NCBI GenBank assembly: GCA_013286835.1
Contig: JABDEZ010000010.1
Span: 1 to 43,776 of the forward strand
DNA length: 43,776 bases
Direction of reading: 5' to 3'
Source of the DNA: Bacteroidota bacterium
GTDB taxonomy: Bacteria; Bacteroidota; Bacteroidia; Chitinophagales; Chitinophagaceae
Shown: positions 18,722 to 36,352 of the stretch, in pieces
Position numbering within the stretch: the first letter of the stretch is position 1
Layout: every line of letters begins with the position of its first letter
Position numbers and translations under genes: made by a program
Notes under the pieces: model-generated
The model's database searches: none
What the model was told of the DNA's origin: nothing
What the model saw: only the letters and a program-made list of their open reading frames with translations

Positions 18722-19765
18722 TTAAAAGAAGGTAGGACAGTTATAAGATTTCTTAACTCTTGAGAAACCGCCATAAATACCTTGGTAAATAAGAGAGAAC
18801 TCCATGGCCCCATTCCCGGCATTATAAGGCGCCAATCTCGATATAGTCGCATCATAAGATGCCGTCACTTGCACCCCACCCCACTGGAAGCCTACAACTC
18901 CTATCACAGCATCATTCAACCTATTGAATGCGCCCAGTATCAGCTGGGTACTTAAAACATCATGTCCCGACAGGTAAACACGAAACAGTGAGCCGTAAGT
19001 CAATTCATAAGCCCCCTTTTGGGTGGCAAAGTAGATAGATGGATTGATAATGTAGCCAGTAGCAGGCTTAAATACACCATCAATATCTGCAGTGGGCCTT
19101 ATTCCTAGTTGGTTCTGCGATCCGTAAAAGCTCTCAACCGGCTGATTGATGTTGGCTACACCTGCACCCACTTTTATATAAACGTCATCATTAGGAAAGT
19201 ATGCATAGTTGATACCCGCGCCCACATCAGCATAGTTGGTTTTAATAATTCCATTCTTCTCCGCGTTAGGCAGGCTGCCGTTAAAGGCAAAGCCGTCCCA
19301 CTGGCTGTCAAAGGTAAGTGCGTCATAGTTCACGCTGCGTTGTGCATACCCGCCTTCCAGCCCCAGGCTCAGCAGGCTGGTGCGGGTCATAGCAAGGTGG
19401 TAGGCTGCAGTCACCTCCATATGGGTCAGCGCCAGGTTGCCATCCCCCGCTTTATCGCTAAACAGGGCGCCTCCCACTCCCAGCCAGCTATGTACATCAC
19501 CATCGTTCTGCCTGTTGTTCGGTACTTTAAAGTCTGCAAACGCTGAAAAGGTATTATATGGCACCGGTACCGACGACCACTGGTTGCGGAAGTTAGCACC
19601 CATCCTATAATCATAGTCAGGCATCATGGCCGTGTTGGCAGGGTTCACCAGCAGGGGGGCATTATAGTACTGCGAGAAATGTATGCTTTGCGCCTGCGCA
19701 GTTACACCACACAATGCCATGCACATATAGGCCCATACTTTTTTATATAGTGGTTTGTTTTTCAT
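18722..19765 (-). CDS. PorP/SprF family type IX secretion outer-membrane protein
   Basis: A 347-residue protein with a signal peptide (about 1-25, ending AQAQ). The opening SIHFSQYYNAPLLVNPANTA is the family hallmark, followed by alternating amphipathic strands typical of an outer-membrane beta-barrel. PorP/SprF proteins work with the type IX secretion system and are commonly encoded next to a large protein with a gliding-motility (CHU_C) C-terminal domain, which they help to export or anchor. Exactly that partner lies 4 bp upstream here, so they form a two-gene unit. Many such paralogue pairs exist per genome; this one should be specific for its neighbour. Confidence 0.94.
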   Translation of the reverse strand: MKNKPLYKKVWAYMCMALCGVTAQAQSIHFSQYYNAPLLVNPANTAMMPDYDYRMGANFRNQWSSVPVPYNTFSAFADFKVPNNRQNDGDVHSWLGVGGALFSDKAGDGNLALTHMEVTAAYHLAMTRTSLLSLGLEGGYAQRSVNYDALTFDSQWDGFAFNGSLPNAEKNGIIKTNYADVGAGINYAYFPNDDVYIKVGAGVANINQPVESFYGSQNQLGIRPTADIDGVFKPATGYIINPSIYFATQKGAYELTYGSLFRVYLSGHDVLSTQLILGAFNRLNDAVIGVVGFQWGGVQVTASYDATISRLAPYNAGNGAMEFSLIYQGIYGGFSRVKKSYNCPTFF

Positions 19766-19769
19766 GTTG

Positions 19770-22700
19770 TTAGCGCAATAATGTTACATTTCCTTTCTTC
19801 TGTAGTGTAGTACCGTCTATAAATGTTACTCTCAGCACATACGCGTATGCATCCATTTCCTGCGGCTTGCCGTTATACGTGCCATTCCATCCCTTGTCTT
19901 GACTAGTGGTTTCAAACACAAGTTGTCCCCAGCGGTTAAATATCATCAGGTCCATCGTTTGTATAGCAGCCCCTCTTACATAAAGTATATCATTAGCTCC
20001 ATCTCCGTTGGGTGAGAAGGCAGTAGGCAGATCAGCAAGCGGTTGTATATCGGCGCTTGTAGCCTTGCATATTTTCGATGGGCAACTCAACCTGTTATAT
20101 GCAGTAAGGCAGGCGCTGTATTGCCCCGTACGTTTATACATGTGGCTCGGGTTCACATCCGTGCTCCCGGTATTGTCTCCAAAATCCCACGCATAGCGCA
20201 CAGCCCCTGTCGATAGGTTGGTAAACGTTACAGGTGAATTGGTAACAGGTATTACCGGCGATGCCGAGAAATCGGCTACCGGGCTGTTTATGATATAAAT
20301 ATTCTTCTTAAAAGTATCAGTACCGTTGCACGATGCGCTGTTGATGACCACTTGCGTTATGGTATACAACCCCGTATCCTGAAATTGGTAAAGCGTATTA
20401 AGAGCATTGCCTGTTACAGACTGGCCATTACCAAAATAGTAGTTAATAATGGTGGCATTTGCAGCTGTCGTACCAAAGCTCACTTCTGTATTTACACAAG
20501 CTGTATCATTTGAAGTAAACCCTGCGGCTACCTTTATCCCGTTAAATTTAAATGTCTTTGAAACGGTGTCCAATGCATTACAGGCGGTCGTGTCGTTGGT
20601 ACTGAGTGTAACGGTATAGGTACCTGCCGCTGCATAGGTATGTGCTGGAGGGGTAGCACCTGTATAGGTGGTGCCATCGCCAAAGTTCCAGGTATATACA
20701 GTAGCTGAGGTACCCTTTGATGAGTCTGTGAATATGGCAATGTAGGGTGCGCAGCTATCTGGCAATACATAACTAAATGCAGGTGTTATTTTATTACTAG
20801 CCACCTTTATAGCAAGGTAGGCCGTATCTGCCTTGTTGCACGAGCTTGGGTTAGTAGTGATCAGCCGTACAGTATAATTTCCTGTATTATTAAATACATG
20901 CGATGGTGAAAATGTCGCACTCGAACCGCCATCTCCAAAGGTCCACTGGTAGGTAGCTCCGTTCACACTCTGGTTCTGGAACTGTACTGTATATGGCGCA
21001 CAGCCTTTAGCGCTGGGCAATGCTGTGGCCGCAGCGCTCACCAGCGGGTAAAATGTAAGTATATGCGATACGCTGTCGGTAGTAACGCACAGCGTTGGGT
21101 CGGTCATAGTAAGCACAACAGTATCGCTGCCGGTAGTGGCGTAAGTATGGTTAGGTGGGGTTGTACCCGTGTAGCTGGTCCCGTCTCCAAAATTCCATGT
21201 ATATACGGTAGACGATGTCCCTTGTTGCGATGTATTGGTGAAGTGCGCCACATACGGCCCGCAACTATCCAGTTTCACCATAGTAAACAGCGGCACTACA
21301 CCACCCGAGTCAACCGTAATATTTATATACGCGGTGTCCACAAGTTTTGAGCAGGCGTTGCTGTTCTGCACAATAAGCTTGGCCACATAATGCCCGACTA
21401 TGGTATAGGTATGCGACGCACCAAATGTATTAACTGTTGGCGACCCATCACCGAAATCCCAGGTATAGGTCGCGCCATTGCTGCTCAAATTGGAGAACTG
21501 TATAAACAGCGGTGCACAACCCTGGCCACTCGTTGGATTGGGAGATGCCACAGCGCTCACAGGACCAATAGAAAAATTTATTTTCAGTGCAACTTCGTTA
21601 CAGTTGTGACTCCCGTTTGTCATGCTCCAGGCCCCGACTGTAGTTGGGAATCCCTGCCCCCCACAGCCACCGCAAATAGCCTGGTACACAATACCATTTT
21701 TGTCGAAGCGACTTGTCCCTCCATCTACATGCTCGTCGGCACCACTTTGTCCCATATAGGTGGCATAAACTAAGGATGCAGCATTTTTACTGAATACAAT
21801 AAAGTAGAAGTCATATCCGTCAGTTGTTGATTGTGCAGCATTTGCAGTAATAGGCATATTGGTACACTCTCCTAAACTTGCTGGGATAGTGCTGCTTGGG
21901 AAATACTGCTTGATATGTAGATCGCCTCCGTAACCTGAAATGTATATATTCTGGCAGGTATCTACAAGAAATGCTACAGGGCTAATGTTGGTTTGTGAAG
22001 AAATACCATTTCCGTAAACCGTAGAAAAAACATCTGTTGCTAAACTGCTGTCCATTTTCATTACGAACTGTGTAGAGTTGGGGTTACTATACACCCCTGT
22101 CGTAACAGGAAACAAGCCACCTATTGACTGCCCCATCACATACACATAATTGGCAGCATCTACCTGTATACCATATACCTGGTCATAACCACTTGTGCCT
22201 ACAAACGTTCCTTTCTGCAATGTATAAGGAGCACTGTTTTGAAATTTCACTACAAAACCATCTGCAAGATCTCCTTGATAGGTAGAATGTAATGTTCCAG
22301 AGGTAACAGGAAAATCGCTGCTTTGAGTACCTCCCGCAACATAAAAAGATGTCTGGCTATAATTGAAGGCAATAACATAGCCTGCATCATCGCTACTTCC
22401 ACCTAGATATGTGCTATACAACAGACTGGACAATGAACTATTCATTTTAAACACAACAGCATCCTGTGAGCCGGAAAGCGTAGTTTGATGGGCATTTAAA
22501 GTTGTAGGGAAACCAGAAGTTCGGGTACATCCTGTAACATAAACATTACCGGCCTTGTCAACTTGCACTTCACTGCGTGCATCATCTCCATAATTATGTT
22601 TTAGATTACCATAATAAATCTCTGTTGAATCATAATTAACGCCATCATCACCTGGGCCGCCAATGTAAGTTGATGCTAAAAGGCTGGTACCTGCGCTATT

Positions 22701-23816
22701 AAACTTAGTAACAATAATATCCCACCCACCACTTTTTGTCGTTTGAAATGCGCCCGTTGTAACCGGGTAATCTCCCGAGGTCGACCTTCCGGCAAATATC
22801 AGGTTGTTGCTACTATCAACAATCATACTGTGTGGCCTTTCGTCAAGAGAACCTCCAATATAAGTGGCAAATATCCTGTTTGATAAAGTTGGATTATATT
22901 TAATAATAGCAATATCACATCCCCATTCCGTAGCGCTCATGCCAGATGTACCACCTTTATATGTTACCTGGAAAGCACCTGTGCTAACAGGGTAGCCGAA
23001 GCCTTGCGCGATACCGCCGGCGTAGAAATTACCTTGTGCATCATAAGTTGCTGTAAAACCCCAGTTGTCAGCCGTGGAGCCGGTGAACGTAGCGAAAATA
23101 ACCACCGGGTCTATAATTAGCGGTTGGTTTGTATCATACTTGTCAGGAAAAGAATATGTTACAATATTTCCCGTCAGAACATAGTTGCATGCAACCACTG
23201 TTTTTTTATCGTTTATATATTGGTATGCATATGGTTTTTGCTCAACAACATCCCCAACAGAAGTATGAATAATAAGATTGCCATTTTTTATGGCCATACC
23301 TTCTGTCCCATCATACCTCAATTTTATTTTACTTTCATCTGCACCAGGTTTCACTATAAACTCATACTCTATATCCCCTTTATCCGATGACACGTGCAGG
23401 TCTATATCTTTGTATAGATGTAAGTAGTCCATATCGTGGTAGGGATGAATGTTAGATTTCCACCTCGAAGAATCGCTACCCAGGTAATAATTATAATATC
23501 CTGTTTCCTTTTTACTTCCTTTCAGTTCAGGCAGATTTGCACCCTCGAAGAACATTTTGTAAGACTGAAATTTTAAGATGGGTGCATCTTTTATTTTGCC
23601 GTGTTGATAATCATCTATTTTGGTGAAATTTGTACCATCTCCAACCAGGTAAGTAAAGCAGTTGTTTTCAAGATATACATCACCTCTGCCGGTACTGGCC
23701 TTATACTTAAATGGCCCATTCCACTGTCCCTGGTTCTCTATAAATTCTATATTTTGCGCAATAAGCCGCGCGGGAATTATAAGGAGTATATAAAAAAATA
23801 GTATTCGGAAAATCAT
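19770..23816 (-). CDS. Large secreted SBBP/PKD-repeat protein with gliding-motility C-terminal domain
   Basis: A 1348-residue secreted protein. A signal peptide (about 1-21, LLIIPARLIAQ) precedes an N-terminal domain starting IEFIENQGQWNG (about 22-235). SBBP-type propeller repeats follow (about 240-780, pattern YLGGSSDDAGY and DFPVTSGT). Then come about six PKD-like domains with FGDG motifs, the fifth degenerate (YYFGNGQ). The end is a CHU_C/T9SS type B domain (AFSPNGDGANDILYV, NRWGQLVFET, KGWNGTYNGK). PKD domains 1 and 3 resemble each other, as do 2 and 4, so a two-domain block was duplicated. Function is probably adhesive or structural. The frame extends to 23954, but the signal peptide and a promoter-like box place the start at 23816. 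Confidence 0.93.
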   Translation of the reverse strand: MIFRILFFYILLIIPARLIAQNIEFIENQGQWNGPFKYKASTGRGDVYLENNCFTYLVGDGTNFTKIDDYQHGKIKDAPILKFQSYKMFFEGANLPELKGSKKETGYYNYYLGSDSSRWKSNIHPYHDMDYLHLYKDIDLHVSSDKGDIEYEFIVKPGADESKIKLRYDGTEGMAIKNGNLIIHTSVGDVVEQKPYAYQYINDKKTVVACNYVLTGNIVTYSFPDKYDTNQPLIIDPVVIFATFTGSTADNWGFTATYDAQGNFYAGGIAQGFGYPVSTGAFQVTYKGGTSGMSATEWGCDIAIIKYNPTLSNRIFATYIGGSLDERPHSMIVDSSNNLIFAGRSTSGDYPVTTGAFQTTKSGGWDIIVTKFNSAGTSLLASTYIGGPGDDGVNYDSTEIYYGNLKHNYGDDARSEVQVDKAGNVYVTGCTRTSGFPTTLNAHQTTLSGSQDAVVFKMNSSLSSLLYSTYLGGSSDDAGYVIAFNYSQTSFYVAGGTQSSDFPVTSGTLHSTYQGDLADGFVVKFQNSAPYTLQKGTFVGTSGYDQVYGIQVDAANYVYVMGQSIGGLFPVTTGVYSNPNSTQFVMKMDSSLATDVFSTVYGNGISSQTNISPVAFLVDTCQNIYISGYGGDLHIKQYFPSSTIPASLGECTNMPITANAAQSTTDGYDFYFIVFSKNAASLVYATYMGQSGADEHVDGGTSRFDKNGIVYQAICGGCGGQGFPTTVGAWSMTNGSHNCNEVALKINFSIGPVSAVASPNPTSGQGCAPLFIQFSNLSSNGATYTWDFGDGSPTVNTFGASHTYTIVGHYVAKLIVQNSNACSKLVDTAYINITVDSGGVVPLFTMVKLDSCGPYVAHFTNTSQQGTSSTVYTWNFGDGTSYTGTTPPNHTYATTGSDTVVLTMTDPTLCVTTDSVSHILTFYPLVSAAATALPSAKGCAPYTVQFQNQSVNGATYQWTFGDGGSSATFSPSHVFNNTGNYTVRLITTNPSSCNKADTAYLAIKVASNKITPAFSYVLPDSCAPYIAIFTDSSKGTSATVYTWNFGDGTTYTGATPPAHTYAAAGTYTVTLSTNDTTACNALDTVSKTFKFNGIKVAAGFTSNDTACVNTEVSFGTTAANATIINYYFGNGQSVTGNALNTLYQFQDTGLYTITQVVINSASCNGTDTFKKNIYIINSPVADFSASPVIPVTNSPVTFTNLSTGAVRYAWDFGDNTGSTDVNPSHMYKRTGQYSACLTAYNRLSCPSKICKATSADIQPLADLPTAFSPNGDGANDILYVRGAAIQTMDLMIFNRWGQLVFETTSQDKGWNGTYNGKPQEMDAYAYVLRVTFIDGTTLQKKGNVTLLR

Positions 23817-23845
23817 CTGAATTAAATTATGCTTTTTGCCCCTAG

Positions 23846-23853
23846 TAAATTTA
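23846..23853 (-). promoter_or_regulatory. Candidate promoter box of the SBBP/PKD-PorP unit
   Basis: TAAATTTA, a TAnnTTTA variant, 29 bp before the ATG, inside the 15-mer CTAGTAAATTTAACA (23842-23856). The same 15-mer stands at nearly the same distance before the SprB-repeat gene. Confidence 0.4.
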
Positions 23854-23981
23854 ACATATTTTATCCAATTACCTGTCAAATTAGTTGGCAAAACCCTATT
23901 TATAGGGGTGAACAATACTTTTGCTGCTCTAACAATAATTGCGGTCTTTTGCATCTTACATACTATTAAGAGTATTTATAA

Positions 23982-34465: not shown

Positions 34466-36352
34466 ATGAAAAAAACACTATTGGCTTTATTAACAGTTTT
34501 TATGCTGAATTCATCATTGCTGCACGCACAAACATGGATACCAGCCTCTGGAGGCAATCTAATAACAGACCCCGCAACAACCAACGTAGGTATCGGCGTT
34601 ACAGCACCGACAGATCCACTAACCATAAAGAATACAATGTCATTGTATGATCCTTTGGATAAATACCGATATATCCTAGGACGTTCATTAACCAGCGGTA
34701 TTAAAATGTGTGCTAATACTGATGCAACTGAGGCAAGCGTGACACTGCATGCAACAAACGAAACTGGCACCGCAGCAGGTGCAGTCACATTTATGACAAA
34801 ATATAATAGTAATACTACTTATCCGTATGTATTCCAATATACAAACCAAAGTAATGCAGTATCAAACTTCCTAACATTTGATCCTACCGGCATTGCACAA
34901 ATAAAAAATAGCTTACTTGTGGGTAATTCTATAGATGTTAGCAGTACTATTTATGGAGAGGCTGACTTAAACATACAGAATAATGGCATTGTATATGGCA
35001 CTTTTCAATCCGGTCCATTGTCTGCAGGAAGCCTCACGTCTATAGGAAGCCTCACATCGGCAGGGCCTAATACATTAAATGGCACTACTACATTAAGTAC
35101 AACCAACATAAATGGAGCTTTAGATGTTAGTAGTACTATTTATGGAGAGGCTGACCTAAATATACAGAATAATGGCATTGTATATGGTACTTTTAATTGT
35201 GGTCCATTGACCACCACCGGAAGCCTCACATCGGCAGGGCCTAATACATTAAATGGTACAACTACCTTAAGTACAACCAATATAAACGGAATTTTAGGGG
35301 TTAGCAGTAATATTAATGCTTCAGGAACAATCACAAGCAGTGCTCTTAATGGAACAGGTAATAGAATGGTTAAAACTTCTTCAACCGGAACCTTAGGATA
35401 TGAAAGCATGCCAGCATTAAGTATTTCTGGTACAACCTTAACCTTATCTAATGGTGGAAGTATAAATAGCCATGTAACAGTACCGTCTGGTGGCGGTGGC
35501 GGTGGTTGGGTTGGTACAGCTACTTCAGCTTTGAATATGAGCAGTTTTGGAATAAATAACGTAAGTACTATACAGGGAACTTTCGGAGCCTCACTTAACC
35601 TGAATAGTAGCAATATAAGCACTACTGCTCAAATGTCAGTAGGTGCACCCTCTACTAGCGGTTATCAATTTTATGTTGATGGTGATACCTACTGCACGGC
35701 GGGTGTATGGACAGCATCTGATAAAAGATTCAAGAAAGACATCCAAAATCTAAGCAACGTATCTGAAAATTTATTTAAAGTAATACCAAGATCGTATAAT
35801 TTCAAAAGAGAAGAATTCAAAGGCATTAAAAATTTTGATGCAATAAATCATTTTGGTTTTATTGCGCAAGAGATTAAAGAGATATATCCTAACCTGGTCA
35901 GATTGGATAGCCCTGGTTATTATGCCATAAACTATACTGAATTCATTCCACTGTTGTTACAATCACTTAAAGAAGAAGATGCTAAACTAAAAGACTACGA
36001 AAACAGATTGGCAGATTTAGAAAATGAGATTCAAGAGATAAAGTATAACAACATTACTACTACTGCTGCAAACACAGCAAAAGTTGATAATAATAAAACA
36101 ACTTTATCGCAAAATGTACCTAATCCTTTTAATGCTGAAACTGTAATTGGTTTTAATATTGCAGGGCAATTTAATCAAGCATTTATTGGGTTATATGATC
36201 TCACTGGTAAAGAACTAAAAAGAATGCCTATCAATTCAAGTGTAAATTTCATAACAATACCTGCTGGCATGTTACAACCTGGTATGTATGTGTACAATCT
36301 TGTTGTGGACGGGATTATGATAGATTCTAAAAAAATGGTGTCAACAAATTAG
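34466..36352 (+). CDS. Fibre-like protein with peptidase S74 chaperone and T9SS sorting domain
   Basis: A 628-residue secreted protein. A signal peptide (about 1-21) is followed by a tail-fibre-like region rich in S, T, N and G, including an internal repeat (LDVSSTIYGEADLNIQNNG and NTLNGTTTLSTTNING, about 157-275) and a glycine stretch (342-347). A peptidase S74 intramolecular chaperone follows (about 414-510: WTASDKRFKKDI, HFGFIAQEI, YTEFIPLLLQSL). S418 and K423 match the serine-lysine spacing of the self-cleaving dyad in phage endosialidases. A coiled coil (about 497-528) and a T9SS sorting domain (VPNPFNAETVIGF to the end, about 551-628) complete it. It probably forms trimeric surface fibres. 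Confidence 0.88.
   Translation: MKKTLLALLTVFMLNSSLLHAQTWIPASGGNLITDPATTNVGIGVTAPTDPLTIKNTMSLYDPLDKYRYILGRSLTSGIKMCANTDATEASVTLHATNETGTAAGAVTFMTKYNSNTTYPYVFQYTNQSNAVSNFLTFDPTGIAQIKNSLLVGNSIDVSSTIYGEADLNIQNNGIVYGTFQSGPLSAGSLTSIGSLTSAGPNTLNGTTTLSTTNINGALDVSSTIYGEADLNIQNNGIVYGTFNCGPLTTTGSLTSAGPNTLNGTTTLSTTNINGILGVSSNINASGTITSSALNGTGNRMVKTSSTGTLGYESMPALSISGTTLTLSNGGSINSHVTVPSGGGGGGWVGTATSALNMSSFGINNVSTIQGTFGASLNLNSSNISTTAQMSVGAPSTSGYQFYVDGDTYCTAGVWTASDKRFKKDIQNLSNVSENLFKVIPRSYNFKREEFKGIKNFDAINHFGFIAQEIKEIYPNLVRLDSPGYYAINYTEFIPLLLQSLKEEDAKLKDYENRLADLENEIQEIKYNNITTTAANTAKVDNNKTTLSQNVPNPFNAETVIGFNIAGQFNQAFIGLYDLTGKELKRMPINSSVNFITIPAGMLQPGMYVYNLVVDGIMIDSKKMVSTN
34934..35300 (+). repeat. Internal tandem DNA repeat of the fibre gene
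   Basis: A block starting GATGTTAGCAGTACTATTTA at 34934 recurs nearly identically at 35123 (189-bp offset). A second block (GGAAGCCTCACATCGGCAGG) at 35045 recurs at 35219 (174-bp offset). The first copy carries an extra 15 bp. Few synonymous differences suggest a recent duplication. Confidence 0.8.

Follow-up and report, generated by a model that had tools for sequence, protein, structure and literature searches.

The window analysed here, a continuous stretch of 43,776 nucleotides from a Bacteroidota genome, carries on its forward strand an intact reading frame (positions 34466-36352) that starts with ATG and encodes a protein of 628 aa, in which a fibre-like region, an intramolecular chaperone domain of the Peptidase_S74 type, a long helix and a type IX (T9SS) sorting domain follow one another. 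This succession of fibre-like repeats, S74 domain, coiled coil and T9SS domain had been proposed in a first-pass annotation, and it is borne out by the reading frame, the profile matches and the fold comparisons described below. The protein opens with a probable Sec-type signal peptide (residues 1-22, positions 34466-34531, ending in LLHAQ), which has the typical look of such signals when read by eye; in an alignment of 17 full-length proteins with a sorting tail, M1 and Q22 were invariant.

Residues 23-417 (positions 34532-35716) form the fibre-like region that sits before the S74 domain. Shared 8-mers revealed a real internal duplication in it, with one copy at residues 157-217 (positions 34934-35116) and the other at residues 220-275 (positions 35123-35290). 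Compared with the PHROG collection, the whole protein matched the tail fibre family phrog_5668 over residues 84-522, and residues 1-416 alone matched no family below E 1e-3. In a full-length monomer model almost all of residues 15-421 had pLDDT values below 50, a confidence too low for a fold search. Given that the region has neither a PHROG family nor a confident model, the term "fibre" as used here refers to its position, its repeats and an analogy with known fibres. Thus, of the fibre-like repeat region first proposed, the duplication and the place before S74 were confirmed, and the PHROG search of residues 1-416 gave it no family.

A prophage or phage origin of the gene was considered and rejected, as its neighbours appear by eye to be chromosomal genes of housekeeping type and the best 15 of the 66 phage matches of the protein lie within residues 384-519. 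Promoter and terminator scans returned nothing beyond shuffled sequences; the Bacteroidota-type promoter pattern matched five times in the window, each time away from the S74-T9SS gene, and 13 of 100 shuffles reached the same number. The genome itself, which is 69% complete, contained a single S74 match, 98 Por_Secre_tail matches (94 over the cut-off) and a PorU match of 1155 bits. The SprA_N profile found no match in this 69% complete genome, and the same search had no match in any of the control genomes. Elsewhere in the window, on the reverse strand at positions 18722-23954, a protein that resembles T9SS type B proteins by eye adjoins a PorP/SprF-like gene, which is the usual pair.

The S74 domain and the sorting tail

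The Pfam profile Peptidase_S74 (PF13884) matched residues 418-479 (positions 35717-35902) with an E of 3.4e-14 and 53.3 bits, against a cut-off of 22. The predicted catalytic serine is S418 (codon at positions 35717-35719), with the predicted cut just before it, and the predicted catalytic lysine is K423 (codon at positions 35732-35734). Both residues had been noted to lie at the known dyad spacing, and alignment with endosialidase-type chaperones had been suggested as a check. With phmmer, residues 379-519 aligned with the long tail fibre of a phage (6f45, E 0.001), and at E values short of significance the protein also aligned with a neck appendage protein (3gud, E 0.81) and with MyRF (7dc3, E 1.7); in all three alignments with these solved structures S418 and K423 (S-x4-K) indeed fell in register on the dyad positions. 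At the serine position 7dc3 reads alanine, which we took as the S587A construct; S587A and K592A are reported to abolish MyRF cleavage, and these residues are equated with S911 and K916 of endoNF in the available text (PMC8326128).

An AlphaFold2 model of residues 383-628, built with 45 sequences (mean pLDDT 84.6), displayed an S74 core, a helix spanning residues 490-531 and a beta-sandwich. The helix (42 residues, 108-149 of the modelled fragment, positions 35933-36058) lies mostly within the confident part of the model and probably forms a trimeric coiled coil; S418 falls in a less confident stretch. With an E of 0.001 or less, Foldseek retrieved four chains, three of them from MyRF 7dc3 (best E 5.7e-5) and the other from the unrelated 5vi0, followed by weaker matches to 3gw6 (E 0.0049) and 3gud (E 0.0088). 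VIA-align superposed residues 18-142 of the model on residues 569-705 of 7dc3 (Z 9.8, 125 aligned residues), and, judging by its first aligned pair, S418 corresponds to S587 and K423 to K592, provided that no gap lies between them.

Behind the helix lies a T9SS type A sorting domain, with a core at residues 552-620 (positions 36119-36325) and a modelled extent to residue 628. When residues 383-628 were searched, TIGR04183 scored 25.0 bits and passed its cut-off of 23, and the full-length protein had no match listed against NCBIfam; tails on repeat-rich proteins may therefore escape full-length profile scans. PF18962 stayed below its cut-off of 27 bits, with 17.1 bits for the full-length protein and 19.4 for the fragment. 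Forty-five tailed proteins, the 628-aa protein among them, were aligned with MAFFT (alignment A1); of the 45 rows, TIGR04183 matched 42 at an E of 0.01 or less, PF18962 matched 36, and S74 matched all 45. Among the Foldseek matches were PorU (6za2, E 0.002) and a T9SS complex (8glk, E 0.0027), amid many unrelated beta-sandwiches, and VIA-align scored the C-terminal domain of PorU at Z 10.6 (87 aligned residues), PorZ at Z 9.7 and mirolase at Z 9.3, with fibronectin-type domains reaching Z 9 to 10 as well. As unrelated beta-sandwiches score nearly as high, the fold alone is no proof of a T9SS domain; the C-terminal T9SS domain of the first-pass annotation holds on the TIGR04183 score of the fragment together with the fold match to PorU, PorZ and mirolase, with PF18962 below its cut-off. 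A tail specific to S74 proteins was rejected, since a model of the tail matched 22 places in the same genome, the second-best of which is a 579-aa protein that looks by eye like an M28-type peptidase.

Spread of the layout among relatives

Of 147 genomes sharing the family code, 74 had S74 matches, as did 88 of 296 genomes sampled across the phylum. Reading frames were taken from the best-scoring matches among those listed, which gave 241 unique S74 frames; five whose C-terminus is cut by the end of the stretch were dropped, leaving 236 with a complete C-terminus, the 628-aa protein included. A T9SS tail stood at the end of 53 of these sampled frames and was missing from the other 183. Tailed frames made up 44 of the 140 frames from family-level loci, a count that includes the 628-aa protein and its nearest relative (L031) and comes from at least 20 of the 147 genomes plus L031, and nine of the 96 frames from loci outside the family, these nine falling in six other family codes. 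A further frame with a tail, L060 in G023, is truncated where its stretch ends. The nearest relative, in another genome, has the same layout, with 53% identity over the best segment of residues 399-628. By hand tally among the matches listed, there are at least 12 tailed S74 paralogues in one genome (G063) and at least eight in another (G070); these paralogues (e.g., L082, L110 and L131) stand partly in tandem and recall the fibre repertoire of Bdellovibrio. A crude pattern detected a signal-peptide-like N-terminus in 106 of the 119 family-level frames that include a start, tailed or not.

The length of protein beyond the catalytic serine was 199-289 residues in tailed frames and 83-210 in untailed ones, of which 179 of 183 had fewer than 165; the remaining four untailed frames reached 185-210 residues without a tail-like end. 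On the basis of these residue counts, the T9SS tail looks like an addition behind a common S74-coil unit. On a tree of the 236 S74 domains the tail state changed at least 21 times, compared with a mean of 48 and a minimum of 43 in 60 label shuffles, which indicates a state that is clustered on the tree yet switches repeatedly; this count is only indicative, because of a short alignment and many weakly supported branches. Given these repeated switches, a single fusion event is unsupported as the whole story, and the tails, which by eye are of two kinds (most of one type, those of L009, L040 and L089 of another), also point away from it.

The combination is thus a real and recurrent domain layout, made of two domains that are each well described already. 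Among the matches listed in the open-licence literature we found no paper on S74 combined with T9SS, and the texts that held both terms, as far as their available parts go, did so by chance wording (a library label, a page number); the layout may well be visible in domain databases.

Conservation of the dyad with and without a fibre

The serine, aspartate and lysine of the dyad motif were invariant in all 45 rows of A1, with S418 as the serine and K423 as the lysine. When the 236 frames were aligned by HMM, 52 of 53 tailed and 174 of 183 untailed ones had the serine, and 52 of 53 vs 182 of 183 had the lysine. These two alignments are the trusted source of dyad counts, as locating the dyad by its motif already requires S and K. 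Column entropies of tailed and untailed frames correlated at 0.94 over 89 columns. Therefore, T9SS-tailed frames hold the dyad as strictly as untailed ones, and the constraint on S74 is alike in both. In four untailed frames (L229, two in L231, and L236) a cysteine takes the place of the catalytic serine (CDRNxK), which suggests a possible Cys-Lys dyad.

The length of the N-terminus was associated with the fate of the serine, which was missing in six of 11 frames with a short N-terminus (doubtful L189 and L070 among the 11) vs four of 177 with a long one, 53 partial frames having been set aside; the Fisher p of 1.6e-6 is only a guide, because the sequences are related. All four serine-less frames with a long N-terminus are the cysteine variants. 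Among ten stand-alone S74 proteins that look secreted, measure about 140-150 aa and have neither fibre nor sorting tail, eight kept the lysine and four the serine (L103:1501-1953, L115:2611-3045, L237:1992-2420 and L265); the serine was lost in L084:2461-2910, L127:2185-2616, L065:2311-2745, L097:580-1023, L234:2112-2528 and L266:1504-1917. The sole exception to the dyad among tailed frames, L193:4349-5083, has no fibre either: its signal-peptide-like stretch leads directly into the S74 domain, in which E replaces the serine and R the lysine. Two orthologues (in G435 and G436) carry the same two replacements, so that all three fibre-less S74-T9 orthologues lack the dyad. All three pass the Pfam cut-off for S74, with matches that begin at profile position 2 and exclude the serine, and their tails fall below the Pfam tail cut-offs. 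Retention of the dyad thus seems to go with an attached fibre, whether or not a tail follows, in a comparison whose fibre-less set is small and made of mutually related members. In our reading of this pattern, the fold would not need the serine, which would be retained wherever a portion is present to be cleaved off, in tailed and untailed proteins alike; conservation of the dyad could also be partly structural.

These dyad-dead genes are part of a trio found in three genomes of one genus code, at L261:1987-6512 on the reverse strand (G387), L258:3-6065 on the forward strand (G435) and L259:1-3999 on the reverse strand (G436). A fibre-like frame without a tail comes first, the dyad-dead S74-T9 gene that lacks a fibre stands second, and a fibre gene with S74 and T9 domains is third. 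The first two frames overlap in G387 and G435, where the third gene keeps the dyad motif (SSVRWK in L193, SSRAWK in L258); in G436 the first two genes are alike, and the third is cut by the end of the contig before any S74 becomes visible. In each of the three genomes the 5' end of the first frame is open. In L261 it matched no Pfam family and, among PHROGs, only phrog_36881, of unknown function, and by eye its counterparts in L258 and L259 have an end of the same type. By analogy with phage fibre chaperones that resemble these domains and act in trans (PMC10579305), the trio has the look of an arrangement that is pre-cut and would likewise act in trans, and the dyad-dead S74-T9 protein is a possible trans-acting export escort.

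Proposed cutting and export of a putative self-cleaving fibre

Several known systems share parts of this design. The S74 subgroup of the Bdellovibrio MAT fibres, represented by Bd3182, comprises surface fibres with a signal peptide, an S74 domain and an SDxxxK dyad; Bd3182 is described as cleaving itself at S782, and S782A blocks the cut (PMC10769870). These fibres end in S74, whereas the 628-aa protein continues into a T9SS domain, and the published description, in the part available, holds no T9SS tail; it does report a conserved domain of about 130 aa behind the signal peptide of MAT fibres (PMC10769870). MyRF (7dc3), the best Foldseek match, shares the S74 fold and a dyad (S587/K592); its trimerisation is driven by a C-terminal coiled coil, as is probable here, and its cleavage is reported to part the N-terminal portion from a C-terminal targeting or anchoring segment, a comparable layout (PMC8326128). 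It differs in being a eukaryotic membrane transcription factor with a membrane anchor after S74 and no T9SS domain. The endosialidase, tail-fibre and neck-appendage chaperones of phages (3gw6, 6f45 and 3gud) have S74 and the dyad and match in sequence or fold, but they are virion proteins, and the best 15 of 66 phage matches lay within residues 384-519, none reaching the tail. T9SS type A cargo resembles the protein in its C-terminal domain of TIGR04183 type and in its Sec-type signal, which in the 628-aa protein is a probable one.

What was observed is the order of the domains and a dyad that is intact and conserved; from this we tentatively interpret the 628-aa protein as a fibre of the S74 (endosialidase-chaperone) type, probably a trimer, that is secreted across the outer membrane by the T9SS and is cut outside, after export. 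Sec would export the chain, the S74 domain and the coiled coil would gather three chains, and the T9SS would recognise the C-terminal domain; once outside, the trimeric S74 module would cut each chain just before S418, which would free the fibre from the S74-coil-tail module, and PorU would then trim the sorting tail. Until export, cleavage would presumably be restrained, for instance if the chain were monomeric or its tail were gripped by the export machinery. A cut between A417 and S418 would part the fibre from the sorting tail, as follows from the order of the domains. The first-pass annotation had inferred such a release, which is supported in part: the domain order is as it described, and an active dyad is favoured by conservation in 52 of 53 tailed frames together with frequent loss where no fibre is present; the pattern fits, without proving, a self-cleavage that frees the fibre from the S74-coil-T9SS module. 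Since an active dyad would defeat any anchoring through the C-terminus, the fibre is more likely to be released or held otherwise. As the layout is common among relatives, cutting and export probably take place in a set order.

That self-cleavage can act on a bacterial S74 surface fibre has been demonstrated for Bd3182, according to the available text (PMC10769870), and MyRF cleavage is described as requiring trimers, formed by its C-terminal coiled coil (PMC8326128). On the other side, T9SS cargo reportedly folds while still in the periplasm and is recognised by its C-terminal domain (PMC10202324), after which it is reported to cross SprA, undergo processing by PorU, and be released or attached to A-LPS (PMC10202324, PMC9251779). 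One would expect S74 to form its trimer and make its cut in the periplasm, where T9SS cargo folds (PMC10202324), which argues against export before cutting; given the periplasmic folding, either cleavage is delayed or the cut complex travels together. The latter course, missing from the possibilities listed in the first-pass annotation, would have the cut made in the periplasm and the fibre trimer held non-covalently by the S74-coil-T9SS module, which would escort it out folded. We consider it unlikely. It would agree with the reported transport of folded and very large proteins by the T9SS (PMC9251779), with the pairing in G387, G435 and G436 of a fibre-like gene without recognised S74 or tail and a dyad-dead S74-T9 gene, as if pre-cut, and with phage trans-acting chaperones resembling these domains, which have been proposed to cap fibres (PMC10579305). 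However, another fibre gene adjoins this pair, whose partnership is putative, and cut S74 domains are described in the accessible texts as released or removed from the mature protein (PMC8326128, PMC10579305).

Similarly low in probability is a suppressed cleavage, in which S74 would serve as a trimer clamp, PorU would take off the tail, and fibre and S74 would stay joined as an intact trimer anchored at the surface. This would resolve the clash with periplasmic folding, and self-inhibition of cleavage by a juxtamembrane region is reported for MYRF-1 of C. elegans (PMC12803276); yet a permanently silent dyad should tolerate loss, and 52 of 53 tailed frames keep it, even though fibre-less relatives match the S74 profile without the serine. 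Very improbable, in turn, is a tail unused for export, the protein being periplasmic or exported by another route: 183 of the 236 sampled S74 frames have no T9SS tail, signal-like N-termini occur in tailed and untailed frames alike, so that untailed fibres presumably have other fates or routes, and the tail scores below the Pfam cut-off, but it reaches that of TIGR04183, matches the fold of T9SS domains and recurs as the same type on a different protein of the genome. Chance resemblance or a decayed gene is scarcely credible, as nothing except the weak Pfam tail score speaks for it, against the strength of the S74 match, the intact frame and a relative in another genome that shares the layout.

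Cutting outside after export, the reading that we tentatively prefer, thus concerns a layout in which a self-cutting domain stands between cargo and export signal, so that a single point mutation can directly test in which order the protein folds, trimerises, is cut and is exported. Since the T9SS is described, in the sources available, as exporting folded cargo, proteins of this layout also raise the question of whether an obligate trimer can pass. A general export escort in Bacteroidota, with a periplasmic cut, a fibre held by a module whose tails pull the complex out before release, and a module acting in trans in some lineages, is rather improbable at present; if it were true, a separate, dyad-less module would serve a neighbouring fibre in trans in those lineages, and the T9SS would there export a protein without a sorting signal of its own.
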